Below are positions 22,583-27,367 of a stretch of DNA of 64,000 nt, piece after piece. Each line of letters starts with the position of its first letter. Position 1 is the first letter of the stretch. This DNA is from Actinomycetota bacterium (GTDB lineage Bacteria; Actinomycetota; Thermoleophilia; Miltoncostaeales; Miltoncostaeaceae): NCBI GenBank assembly GCA_016870155.1, contig VGCE01000009.1:1-64000 (forward strand), in the 5' to 3' direction. A program made the position numbers and the translations under genes. Under the pieces are notes generated by a model. It worked only from the letters and a program-made list of their open reading frames with translations, ran no database searches and was not told the DNA's origin.

Positions 22583-23353
22583 ATGAGCGACTCCCCTGAG
22601 GCCCTCGCCGCACTGCTCCGCGACGCCCACCACGCCGTGGTGCTCACGGGCGCAGGCATCAGCACCGAGAGCGGCATCCCCGACTTCCGGTCGGCAGGCG
22701 GGCTGTGGGAAACGTACGACCCGATGAAGGTCGCGTCGATGCGCACCTTCATGGACGACCCGGCGCTCTTCTGGCGGTTCCACCGGCCGCGAATCGACAT
22801 GCTGGGCGCGGTGGACCCCAACCCGGCGCACGAGGCCGTGGCCGAGCTGCAGCGGCGGGGAATCGTGAAGGCCGTCATCACCCAGAACATCGACCGGCTG
22901 CATTCGCGGGCCGGAGCGGTGGACGTGATCGAGGTGCATGGGTCGCTCGACGGCGGGCGGTGCATGCGGTGCAGCCACACCGTGAGTATGGATGAACTCT
23001 GCGCCCGGGCAGACGCGGCCAGTGACGGCGTGCCCCGGTGCAACTGCGGGTTCCAGATGAAGAGCGGCGTGGTGCTGTTCGGCGAGCAGATGCCCATGGA
23101 GGCCATCGAGGCGGCCTACGACGCCGCCGAGCGCGCGGACGTGATGCTGGTGATCGGATCGAGCCTGCAGGTGACCCCCGTGAGCCAGCTTCCGGGGGTG
23201 GTGCTGTCACGCGGCGGGCGCCTCGCGATACTCACCGAGAGCGAGACCGACTACGACGCGCGCTGCACGGTGAGGGTCCACGAGAAGGCCGGGCCCACCA
23301 TGCAGGCGGTGGTGGCGGCCCTGGGCCCCGAGCCGCAGGTGTCAGGCACTTAA
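22583..23353 (+). CDS. cobB: NAD-dependent protein deacylase (sirtuin, CobB/Sir2 family)
   Basis: 256 residues, typical for bacterial sirtuins. It removes acyl groups from protein lysines using NAD. The NAD loop GAGISTESGIPDFRS (residues 23-37), TQNIDRLH (100-107) and catalytic H119 in EVHGS are intact. C127, C130, C153 and C155 form the zinc site. The last codons lie inside the 46-bp palindrome at 23338-23383, which probably terminates it. A second, atypical sirtuin-like gene lies at 59686. Confidence 0.93.
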   Translation: MSDSPEALAALLRDAHHAVVLTGAGISTESGIPDFRSAGGLWETYDPMKVASMRTFMDDPALFWRFHRPRIDMLGAVDPNPAHEAVAELQRRGIVKAVITQNIDRLHSRAGAVDVIEVHGSLDGGRCMRCSHTVSMDELCARADAASDGVPRCNCGFQMKSGVVLFGEQMPMEAIEAAYDAAERADVMLVIGSSLQVTPVSQLPGVVLSRGGRLAILTESETDYDARCTVRVHEKAGPTMQAVVAALGPEPQVSGT

Positions 23354-23383
23354 CCGAAGGCCTTCGGTTAAGTGCCTGACACC
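23338..23383. repeat. 46-bp perfect palindrome overlapping the cobB stop; probable bidirectional terminator
   Basis: The left arm 23338-23360 and right arm 23361-23383 are exact reverse complements (23 bases each, no spacer). The arm begins GGTGTCAGGCACTTAACC. It includes the TAA stop of cobB and ends 20 bases before the stop of the convergent gene at 23404, so it could stop transcription from both sides or extrude as a cruciform. It is richer in A and T than its surroundings, and could also be a mobile REP-like sequence. Confidence 0.8.
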
Positions 23384-23819: not shown

Positions 23820-25055
23820 CTAGGCCAGCCCCGGGGCGCTGTCGTCCATCGCGCGCACGCTCGGCGTGGCCAGCACCATCGCCACGTTGGCGAACACCGC
23901 GGCCACGGCCAGCCACATCATTCCCGACAGGCCGATGCCGGCGATGATGACACCTGCGATTCCGAAGCCGATGGGCTGGCACACCTGGCTGCCCAGCGCG
24001 CGGAATGAGCCCACGCGCGAACGGAGGTCGGGGGTCACCTGCCGGGTGATGGTGGTCTCGAGGAGGCTGCCCGAGATGATGATGACCGTGCCGCCCAGCC
24101 ATGCGCATGCCGCGATGACCGCCGTGGGCGCCGGCACCGACAGCGCGATGAAGGTGCCCACGAACGGCATGGTCACCGCGTAGGCCAGCACAAGCGGTCG
24201 GCGCGGGGTGAGGCGCGCCACGATGAGCCCGCCGGTCACGAACCCCAGCCCGAACGCCGACACGATCGCGGCGTACGAGGCGGCGCCGTCCAGGTACTCC
24301 TCGGCGATCAGCGGCCCGGCCACGAAGATCGCCGGCATCACGAGCAGCGCGTAGAACGACTCGCCCAGCACCACCACCACGAGCCATGTGCGCCGACGGA
24401 AGGCGTCCCAGCCGTCGCGCAGGTCATGCAGGAACGACCGTCCGCGCTCAGCCATGGCCACCACGCGGAAGCGCGCGAAGCTGAGCAGCACGATCGCCAC
24501 CGCGAAGGTAACGGCGTCGAGCGCGATCGCGCCGGCGGGCGAGATGAGCGCCACCGCGGTGCCCCCGAGGATTCCCCCGGCCAGCATCCCCACCGCGGGG
24601 GTCATGGCGATGAGCCCATAAGCCTCCTGCAGGCGCCCGGGCGACACCGACTGCGGGAGGATTCCCGAGAGCGCCGGGCGGAAGAACGCCTCCGCCGTGC
24701 CGTACACGAACGTGATTGCCACGATGGCCGGCACGCCTCCCACCCCGAGCAGCAGGATGGCGGTGAACGTGGCCTGGCACCCTGCGCGCACGGCGTCGCT
24801 GGAGATCATCACGGTACGGCGCGACATGCGGTCGGCCCACACGCCGCCGATGAGCAGGAACAGCACCAGGGGCACCGCGCGGGCACCCAGCACAAGGCCG
24901 ATGTCGCCGGCGCCACCGCCAAGGGCGATGATGGCGAAGGGCACGGCCACCGACGCCACGGCGTCGCCCACGGCACTCAACAGCTGCGAGCTGAACAAAA
25001 GCCGGAACGATTGCTCGCGCAGGCATCCGACGCCGGGGAGCGCGAGGACCGACAT
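23820..25055 (-). CDS. MFS transporter, EntS/DHA3-like exporter
   Basis: 411 residues from ATG 25055 (a GTG three codons upstream at 25064 is also possible). It has about 12 hydrophobic helices. The loop between helices 2 and 3 reads GGVWADRMSRRTVM, the MFS signature. The early segment SFRLLFSSQLLSAVGDAVAS resembles the DHA3 family of drug and siderophore exporters. The substrate is unknown. It follows the rhodopsin gene on the same strand after 53 bases, so they may be cotranscribed. Confidence 0.8.
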   Translation of the reverse strand: MSVLALPGVGCLREQSFRLLFSSQLLSAVGDAVASVAVPFAIIALGGGAGDIGLVLGARAVPLVLFLLIGGVWADRMSRRTVMISSDAVRAGCQATFTAILLLGVGGVPAIVAITFVYGTAEAFFRPALSGILPQSVSPGRLQEAYGLIAMTPAVGMLAGGILGGTAVALISPAGAIALDAVTFAVAIVLLSFARFRVVAMAERGRSFLHDLRDGWDAFRRRTWLVVVVLGESFYALLVMPAIFVAGPLIAEEYLDGAASYAAIVSAFGLGFVTGGLIVARLTPRRPLVLAYAVTMPFVGTFIALSVPAPTAVIAACAWLGGTVIIISGSLLETTITRQVTPDLRSRVGSFRALGSQVCQPIGFGIAGVIIAGIGLSGMMWLAVAAVFANVAMVLATPSVRAMDDSAPGLA

Positions 25056-25117
25056 CACCACCACCCCAGCCCGCGCGCCCTGTCAAGCGACGCGCGGGCC
25101 GGGCGGCGGCGCAACCG

Positions 25118-25831
25118 TCAGACCAAGGACGGGCGGGCGGCCTCAAGCACCTTTCGGTTGGAAAGGAGCAGGAAGCCGAAGCCGACCTTGGCGACCAGGT
25201 CGATGATGGTGAAGGCCGCGACCTCACCGGTGATGCTGATGACGTTAAAGCCCTCGGTGCCGAGTAGCCAGAGGATCGGATAGATCGTCCAGACGACAGC
25301 GAGCAACACGGCCAACTGGGTGAACTTGGCCTTCACCTCGGGGGCGCGCTCGTTGGCGGCCTTCAGGACCTCCGACAGCAGCACCCAGAGCAGCCAGACG
25401 AAGACGAGGGCACTGACGATGAACCAGATGTAGCGGAGGTTGCTGGAGGTGACTCCCGCGAAGAATCCCGTAGTGATCATCATGACGTCAAGACCCAGGA
25501 GCCAGACAATGGCCTCCTTTGTGGCCCCGGCGAGCAGCGCCAGGTCAAGCAGCAACAGGGGCGTGGTGAAGAACCAGTCCACGTAGCGCGCCCAGTAGAA
25601 GGGCTCGGCCATCGACTGGCCCTCGCGCGCGATCGGGAACCAGCCCTGCTTGAGGGCCATCGCCAGATAGGCAATGCCCGCGATGCCGACGATGAAGAAG
25701 GTGATGGTCTGAAACCACCGGTGGCCCGGCCTCTCACGGGCCGCCATGAACAAAAAGGCAAGGGCGCCGAGCGCCATGCCGATGGTGCCGATCCAGAGCC
25801 AGACCTGGACGGCATCTGAGGGCTCAACCAT
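25118..25831 (-). CDS. Bacteriorhodopsin-like light-driven proton pump (microbial rhodopsin)
   Basis: 237 residues, seven transmembrane helices. With retinal bound it should pump protons outward in light. Helix 3 reads RYVDWFFTTPLLLLDLALL: R82, D85, T89 and D96 match bacteriorhodopsin in residue and number, giving the DTD pump motif. D115, M118 and G122 also match. W181, Y184 and W188 line the pocket, E193 and E203 match the proton-release pair E194/E204, and D211 with K215 (IDLVAKVGFG) are the counterion and Schiff-base lysine. The proteorhodopsin-type Glu donor is absent, so it resembles the archaeal or Rubrobacter type. No retinal synthesis gene is in the window. Only a weak ribosome site (CGAGG) precedes the ATG. 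Confidence 0.93.
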   Translation of the reverse strand: MVEPSDAVQVWLWIGTIGMALGALAFLFMAARERPGHRWFQTITFFIVGIAGIAYLAMALKQGWFPIAREGQSMAEPFYWARYVDWFFTTPLLLLDLALLAGATKEAIVWLLGLDVMMITTGFFAGVTSSNLRYIWFIVSALVFVWLLWVLLSEVLKAANERAPEVKAKFTQLAVLLAVVWTIYPILWLLGTEGFNVISITGEVAAFTIIDLVAKVGFGFLLLSNRKVLEAARPSLV

Positions 25832-25901
25832 GGGAAACCTCGAGTTCGATGAGTGCGGGTGGAATGAAAATCATGAGGTACGAAGGAGAGATGTAGTCGT
25901 T

Positions 25902-25990
25902 TTGTCCACTTTTTACAGGTTCTGTCCACAAACTCGCGGGAGAACCGTCGTTTGCAAGCCGATCCTGACTCATGTGTCACCTGTGGATAA
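25902..25990. promoter_or_regulatory. Cluster of DnaA-box-like sites in an AT-richer gap
   Basis: TTGTCCACT (25902-25910), CTGTCCACA (25922-25930) and TGTGGATAA (25982-25990, exact reverse complement of TTATCCACA) lie 20 and 60 bases apart. The first two are one base away from the actinobacterial consensus TTGTCCACA. They sit upstream of the rhodopsin, where its promoter should be. Neither dnaA nor dnaN is near, so this is not a usual origin. The first two also form a direct repeat (GTGGACA on the minus strand). Confidence 0.45.
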
Positions 25991-26007
25991 CCCGAACGCC
26001 GCGCGGA

Positions 26008-26766
26008 TCAGGCCACGTTCGCCAGCCACGCGGCCGCCATGTCGGACACCACGTCCCTGCTCCCGGTGCACATGTTATCGGCCTGCGTCACCACGTGAAG
26101 CAGCAGGTCGTCGTTGCCCGCCCGCAGGATCGCGATGGCCACCCGGACCTTGGCGATCTGGACGCGGCTCACCGCGTGCGGCGACTCCGGCCCGCGTGAC
26201 GACCACCACGTCGCGTAGGTCCAGATCTCCCCGTTCTCGGGGCTGGGCGTCGAGCCGTTGGCGCGCATGACCGTAAGGACGCGGTCGCCCGGCGGGTCGT
26301 CCGCGTTCTCGACCACGATCGGCCGCGCGTAGCCGACCACCTCCCCGCACGACGGCGTGGCGCCCTAGCGCAGCCAGCGCAGGCGCAGGGCCTCGGGCAG
26401 CGACGCCGGGGGCGCGATTGTGAACAGCCCCACCACCTCGGGAGCATCGTGGTTGGCGATGAAGTTCGGGCACACCGTGCTGTCCATGCTGTAGCTCAGC
26501 AGAACCACGCGATTGAACCCGTCGGCGCCGCCACTTCGACGGCGGCCTCGATGTCGAGCGGCGTCGTGTGGAACAGCCCGCCGCCGAAGAAGAGGCCGTT
26601 GTTGTCCGGCCGCGTGTTGACGGCCATCACGGGGAAGCCGTCCTCGGCCAGCTCGAACGCCAGGCGGCGCGGCACCCCGTGAGGTAGTTGCCCACCGAGC
26701 CGTGCATCACGATCACCAGCCATGCGCGTGCCCCGCGCGCGGACGCCCCGGCCGGCGCGTGCTCAC
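26008..26766 (-). pseudogene. Alpha/beta-hydrolase pseudogene
   Basis: Read with corrected frames from GTG 26766, this is an alpha/beta-hydrolase: WLVIVMHGSVGNYLTG, VPRRLAFELAEDGFPVMAVN, LDIEAAVEVAA, DGFNRVVLLSYSM, then PEVVGLFTIAPPASLPEALR. Damage includes a shift in the 26744 area, one lost base in the C-run 26675-26678, a shift near 26530 and an in-frame stop at 26365-26367. The nucleophile motif is degraded (SYSMD where GxSxG is expected). The GTG overlaps the restored end of the upstream hydrolase by 4 bases, so the two were once coupled. Confidence 0.7.
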
Positions 26767-26776
26767 GCCAGCGCCC

Positions 26777-27367
26777 TCAGGAACGCCGCGATGGCATCCA
26801 CCAGCAGGGATCTCCTGCCCCGGGCGTGCCCTCCACCACCACCACCTCGCCCAGCCGCGCGACGATCTCCTCATACGCGGGGTCGGCGCCCCAGTGGCGG
26901 CTGCGCTGCTCGAGCGACTCGGGCAGGCCCCACTGCCCCGAGATGGAGATGGGCCCGCGCACCGCGTGGAACGGACGCGTGGCCACGTACCACGCGGCCA
27001 GCGTGGCCCCGCTCGAGCGCCCGCACACCACCGCGTGGTCGTCGCCCCGCACCTGCAGCCAGCTCCACGCGGCGGCGATGTCGCGCACGGCGGCGTCGAA
27101 GATCGCCTTGCCGAAGAGCTGGCCCACGTTGCGCATGCGGGTCTTTACCACCAGCGCGCGGGACCCCGGCCGCGCGATGCGCCCGGGCAGGGACCTCAGC
27201 GTGCCCACCAGGAAGTTGCCGATGATGCCGTGCACGTGGATTGCCGCCGTGCGCCGGCCGGTGGCGCGCTCGCGCACGCGGGTGGGCCGGTCATCGACGT
27301 GCAGCGGGGCGTCGTGCACCTCGCCATCTTCGGCGGTGATCGTGGCGAGGGTGCGCTCGACTGCCAC
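26777..27367 (-). CDS. Truncated alpha/beta-hydrolase
   Basis: 196 residues, beginning 3 bases after murI. It has the oxyanion-loop start HVHGIIGNFLVGTLRSLPGR and nucleophile GRSSG (G-x-S-x-G). The later Asp/His region is missing: the sequence jumps from EEIVARLGEVVVVEGTPGAG to a C-terminal tail. A shift at the C-run 26818-26821 would restore SLLVDAIAAFLRALA and a stop at 26763. The gene is therefore both shortened and frame-shifted and is probably inactive. It and the pseudogene at 26008 are tandem relatives. Confidence 0.6.
   Translation of the reverse strand: MAVERTLATITAEDGEVHDAPLHVDDRPTRVRERATGRRTAAIHVHGIIGNFLVGTLRSLPGRIARPGSRALVVKTRMRNVGQLFGKAIFDAAVRDIAAAWSWLQVRGDDHAVVCGRSSGATLAAWYVATRPFHAVRGPISISGQWGLPESLEQRSRHWGADPAYEEIVARLGEVVVVEGTPGAGDPCWWMPSRRS

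Follow-up and report, generated by a model that had tools for sequence, protein, structure and literature searches.

A predicted bacteriorhodopsin-type proton pump in a Miltoncostaeales genome without recognisable retinal genes

The stretch of DNA analysed here (the window, 64,000 nucleotides) encodes a rhodopsin that is likely to be an outward light-driven proton pump similar to bacteriorhodopsin (BR) and to the rhodopsin of Rubrobacter xylanophilus (RxR), charged with imported retinal; pump activity, direction and import are predicted from sequence. The organism is an actinobacterium, as the original prediction had supposed; the record titles of its relatives point to Miltoncostaeales (Thermoleophilia).

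Residue set and predicted fold of the rhodopsin

The rhodopsin gene was found intact on the minus strand at 25118-25831 (ATG at 25831, stop at 25118) and encodes 237 amino acids. The protein matched PF01036 (Bac_rhodopsin) with an E value of 1.6e-58 and 198.2 bits, compared with a curated cut-off of 24.6, and it was the only match to this family in the 1.81-Mb genome; NCBIfam gave no match for it. Its best sequence match in the PDB was RxR (6kfq, 4.1e-53). The PF01036 match, the Schiff-base K215 in helix G and the seven long helices that AF2 predicts identify it as a type-1 microbial rhodopsin. The AF2 model has a pLDDT of 90.9, and against the five best pump structures, which are haloarchaeal and include deltarhodopsin and BR, it gave TM scores of 0.91-0.93 and rmsd values of 1.3-2.0 Å, suggesting that the protein folds like BR. 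Together with the dN/dS values given below, these matches, the model and the residues described next led us to assign it as a predicted bacteriorhodopsin-type proton-pumping rhodopsin.

The original prediction listed a full BR residue set with nearly identical numbering, and the alignment with BR bears this out. The residues are numbered R82, D85, T89, D96, D115, W181, Y184, W188, E193, E203, D211 and K215 in the protein itself and correspond to R82, D85, T89, D96, D115, W182, Y185, W189, E194, E204, D212 and K216 of BR; the numbers from R82 to D115 are the same and the later ones are one lower. The equivalents of BR Y57, Y79, Y83, W86, T90, L93, M118, G122 and P186 are likewise retained. The protein thus has the sequence features of a BR-type outward proton pump, namely the D85/T89/D96 motif with R82 and D212 and the release glutamates E194/E204 (E193/E203 here). 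The release pair had been said to be missing from other groups, and indeed proteorhodopsin, xanthorhodopsin, Gloeobacter rhodopsin and 14 actinomycete rhodopsins of that side have neither of the two glutamates. Since the position of BR W138 is occupied by Phe, and not by the Gly found in carotenoid-antenna xanthorhodopsins, a fenestration for a carotenoid antenna is unlikely. The retained L93 would be consistent with absorption of green light, the expected maximum being about 530-550 nm.

Conservation and genomic context

Nine near-full-length orthologues were found in the same genus with 79-91% identity, and dN/dS between the query and these nine congeners was 0.10-0.17, which excludes chance. 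The rhodopsin is under purifying selection, and none of the proton-pump residues varies among the ten full-length sequences of the genus. In a first survey, orthologues or fragments were detected in 13 of 20 genomes of the genus (own genome included) and in none of 41 other relatives outside it. The rhodopsin of one congener (G007, L059:10449-11029) carries two in-frame internal deletions and is either a decaying gene or an assembly artefact. At the level of the class, 42 of 399 Thermoleophilia genomes carry a rhodopsin match above the cut-off. The full-length rhodopsins sampled from other Thermoleophilia families retain both release glutamates and have Gly at the D96 position; this DTG motif on a BR-type background was observed in families f3, f5, f7 and f8 (L084-L103), and blh was absent from most of their genomes. 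Across the phylum, rhodopsins of the BR side and of the actinorhodopsin side both occur.

The gene order murI, two hydrolases, rhodopsin and an MFS gene, with SIR2 beyond, is kept in the genus. The MFS transporter gene (23820-25064, minus strand; PF07690, 3.9e-24) lies directly downstream and adjoins the rhodopsin in the orthologous loci examined, with the order of the two genes swapped at L007; it is a conserved neighbour with no evident functional link to the rhodopsin. Two genomes (G010 and G017; L163:689-1471 and L165:689-1471) have a SAM-methyltransferase-like gene between hydrolase and MFS, where no rhodopsin was found. The G003 contig begins inside a methyltransferase-like gene directly before MFS, and at L009 and L010 both this gene and the rhodopsin are present. 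The content of this slot therefore varies between species. In the window, the hydrolase genes that lie in tandem on the upstream side of the rhodopsin (26008-27367, minus strand) are both broken, while they are intact in relatives such as L059: hydA is frame-shifted and residues of about 182-280 of hydB were not found, which may be due to sequencing error.

A strong hairpin lies between the rhodopsin stop and the MFS start (25050-25117, minus strand), and the folded stretch 25040-25125 has an MFE of -58.8 kcal/mol (z -3.8). It is likely to act as a transcription terminator or attenuator. The region upstream of the gene (25832-26007, minus strand) is richer in A+T, with a GC content of about 0.60 compared with about 0.71 around it, and is presumed to hold the rhodopsin promoter; a sigma-70 promoter scan gave no match near the start codon, and an Rfam scan of 23-29 kb gave no matches. 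Elsewhere in the window, between SIR2 and an ABM-like gene, a perfect palindrome GTGTCAGGCACTTAACCGAAG/CTTCGGTTAAGTGCCTGACAC was observed at 23339-23382. Its 16-base arm recurs on contig C5 of the same genome and in G007, and it could be a REP-like element or a terminator.

Phylogenetic placement

The rhodopsin tree contained 89 sequences, with eukaryotic rhodopsins and cyanorhodopsins left out. The query fell into a ten-sequence clade of its genus (support 100/100), and this clade fell inside a BR-side group of 71 sequences (100/100), apart from GPR, XR, GR and the actinorhodopsins. The placement with haloarchaeal and Rubrobacter-type pumps advanced in the original prediction was thereby recovered in the tree that it had proposed, and the position inside the actinorhodopsins that it had named as refuting did not occur. 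Grouping the query with the actinorhodopsins cost 149 log units and was rejected (p-AU 2.7e-6), and the presence of D96, E193 and E203 also speaks against an actinorhodopsin identity.

Within the BR side the genus clade stands separate, with a stem of 0.94, and the sequences indicate that it is a deep clade of its own. All the sister-group constraints were allowed: Rubrobacter (p-AU 0.47), haloarchaea (0.32), the other Thermoleophilia with the DTG motif (0.33) and cyanobacterial chloride pumps (0.37). Monophyly with the RxR sequences was absent from the best tree, the value of 0.47 being that of the forced grouping. The sequence L112 lies at zero distance from RxR in the tree, and family f23 is therefore Rubrobacter-like.

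A recent horizontal transfer of the same pump from haloarchaea into the genus was considered, since only one genus among those sampled from the family has the rhodopsin and the total GC content of the gene is 0.63, compared with about 0.70 in the neighbouring genes. However, its GC3 of 0.89 is the same as that of the neighbours and gives no sign of recent arrival, the clade is separate on its 0.94 stem, the top PDB match is from Rubrobacter, and the haloarchaeal grouping was not preferred, as its p-AU was about equal to those of the Rubrobacter, DTG and cyanobacterial groupings. We regard such a transfer as quite unlikely.

Retinal and carotenoid genes

A search for blh and crt genes, which the original prediction had proposed, came out negative in the genome itself, an outcome that it had not foreseen. 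The genome is a MAG-like draft of 16 contigs with 97.83% completeness, so a retinal gene could be missing from the assembly, yet the absence repeats in the congeners. BCD (Blh/Brp) was found neither in the own genome nor in any of the congeners whose rhodopsin is full-length, and no RPE65-family oxygenase was found in the own genome. The carotenoid search covered CrtB, CrtI and lycopene cyclase. No CrtI orthologue was detected in the own genome, where the best match (3.2e-5) was FAD-fold background. A 414-aa CrtI-like protein was below the curated cut-off of CrtI and of every other listed NCBIfam family, and a desaturase beside hpnC/hpnD was identified as HpnE. The two SQS_PSY genes of the genome passed the curated HpnC and HpnD cut-offs and adjoin HpnE; squalene is therefore the expected product, and not phytoene. 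No full-length lycopene cyclase was found in the own genome, only Rossmann-type matches of 111 bases. With no crtB, crtI, crtY, blh or diox of its own recognised, the genome does not show a complete module for rhodopsin phototrophy. BCD was present in 7 of the 39 genomes searched and was not found in many other rhodopsin-bearing Thermoleophilia, while in R. xylanophilus rhodopsin, crtY and blh lie side by side.

One congener, G013, carries a retinal cassette. At the end of its contig C106 the final codons of a genus-type rhodopsin precede crtI and crtB, and blh and crtY have the opposite orientation. Contig C7 has the same rhodopsin 3' end, but there the MFS gene comes next, as is usual. C106 and C7 are identical over 139 bases, differ in one base before the stop, are alike through a hairpin-like repeat and then diverge; by eye, the hairpin-like repeat after the rhodopsin stop is thus also present on both 3' contigs of this congener. 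A rhodopsin 5' end is present on contig C98. In the own genome C106 and C98 correspond to G000:C5 69100-70055 and 70139-79666, which are 84 bases apart and border a single site; the genes on either side of this site, named by eye from translations, are TerC-like and CcdA-like. Therefore a cassette of about 5.3 kb, rhodopsin-crtI-crtB with blh-crtY (L056:14453-19291 with L181:10722-11138), is inserted, along with an additional unassembled rhodopsin middle, in G013 or in part of its population at the site equal to G000:C5:70055-70139; in the window's genome these 84 bp hold no insert. Foreign contamination was rejected as the source of C106, because the own genome matches its first 20 kb colinearly at about 81-82%, most of the remainder up to 37,420 continues on the same own contig, and its tetranucleotide use is genus-like. 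Among the loci compared, crtY and blh of G013 were nearest to Thermoleophilia family f8 (58-63%). We infer two rhodopsin copies in one G013 cell, while a strain mixture in the MAG is possible, and the cassette was either gained in G013 or lost elsewhere.

Proposed mechanism and alternatives

Because the residue set follows the precedent of BR and of RxR, for which the residue roles were shown by mutation (PMC6959264), outward proton pumping is predicted. Retinal bound to K215 would isomerise, the Schiff-base proton would pass to the acceptor D85, a proton would exit through the E193/E203 release group, and D96 would pass a new proton from the cytoplasm to the Schiff base; the resulting proton gradient may supplement respiration. 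The carotenoid and retinal genes would have been lost or never present, and retinal from co-occurring microbes would be taken up and bound. It is very likely that the cell does not make retinal, and import is the likeliest supply because the rhodopsins of Saccharibacteria, whose genomes lack retinal genes, take up added retinal (PMC9296517).

The absence of known genes is by itself no proof of import, since Aurantimicrobium minutum, which has neither blh nor diox1, produces retinal (PMC7734400). Accordingly, the cell could itself supply the pump with retinal, by way of an unknown oxygenase or another pathway that does not use Blh. However, A. minutum has carotenoid genes, including C50-carotenoid genes (PMC7734400), whereas phytoene synthase, CrtI and lycopene cyclase are not recognisable here either and no carotenoid substrate is apparent, which makes this supply very improbable. 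It is equally doubtful that the protein no longer pumps and serves as a light sensor or as a non-chromophoric membrane protein. The missing retinal genes, the lack of an obligate partner gene, the two in-frame deletions in one congener and the absence of the gene from several others would fit such a loss. Against it, no transducer was found among the adjacent genes scanned, a chromophore-free protein would not be expected to retain K215, D85 and D96, and the invariant pump residues and low dN/dS point to a maintained function. Unlikely, though less so than these two, is a broader reading in which the whole genus would run functional BR-type pumps with retinal from an unrecognised route, either a new pathway without the known carotenoid genes or a dedicated uptake system, and one congener would have gained, or alone kept, a full rhodopsin and retinal cassette at a second site.

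Comparison with known rhodopsins

The original prediction held that a BR-type pump in this group would be notable. The placement was supported, but the presence alone is less notable because such pumps are already known in Actinomycetota: RxR is an assayed proton pump of this type (PMC5349596), and for desert crusts BR and beta-carotene dioxygenase genes were reported from Rubrobacteria and from a single Thermoleophilia MAG (PMC7901476). No mention of a Miltoncostaeales rhodopsin turned up in the literature we searched. New here are the distinct clade, the missing retinal genes and the G013 cassette; the genus is probably aquatic, judging from the record titles of its relatives. The clade adds a distinct BR-type pump to apparently aquatic Thermoleophilia. 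The genus also offers a natural experiment in chromophore supply, as most species have the same pump without retinal genes, one has a full retinal cassette and others lack the pump, and this contrast allows one to ask whether free retinal serves as a common good in natural waters.

Actinorhodopsin, xanthorhodopsin and proteorhodopsin share the type-1 class, the Schiff-base Lys and the Asp counterion with the query, but they have a Glu donor, no release glutamates and about 21-25% identity to it. The DTG-type BR-side rhodopsins of families f3, f5, f7 and f8 are of the same class and have the E194/E204 pair and D115; they differ in having Gly in place of the query's Asp at donor position 96, form a separate clade and are about 40% identical. 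Haloarchaeal bacteriorhodopsin, deltarhodopsin and archaerhodopsin have the functional residue set and the fold in common with the query at 37-47% identity, with Trp instead of the query's Phe at BR position 138, and the query's host is bacterial. RxR (PDB 6kfq; PMC5349596, PMC6959264) likewise has an Actinomycetota host and shares the DTD motif, the E194/E204 release pair, D115 and the W/Y/W pocket, with 50% identity over 216 columns. The position of BR W137 is W in the query and L in RxR, the RxR gene belongs to a rhodopsin-crtY-blh cluster whereas the query genome is without retinal genes, and the two proteins fall into separate clades in the best tree.
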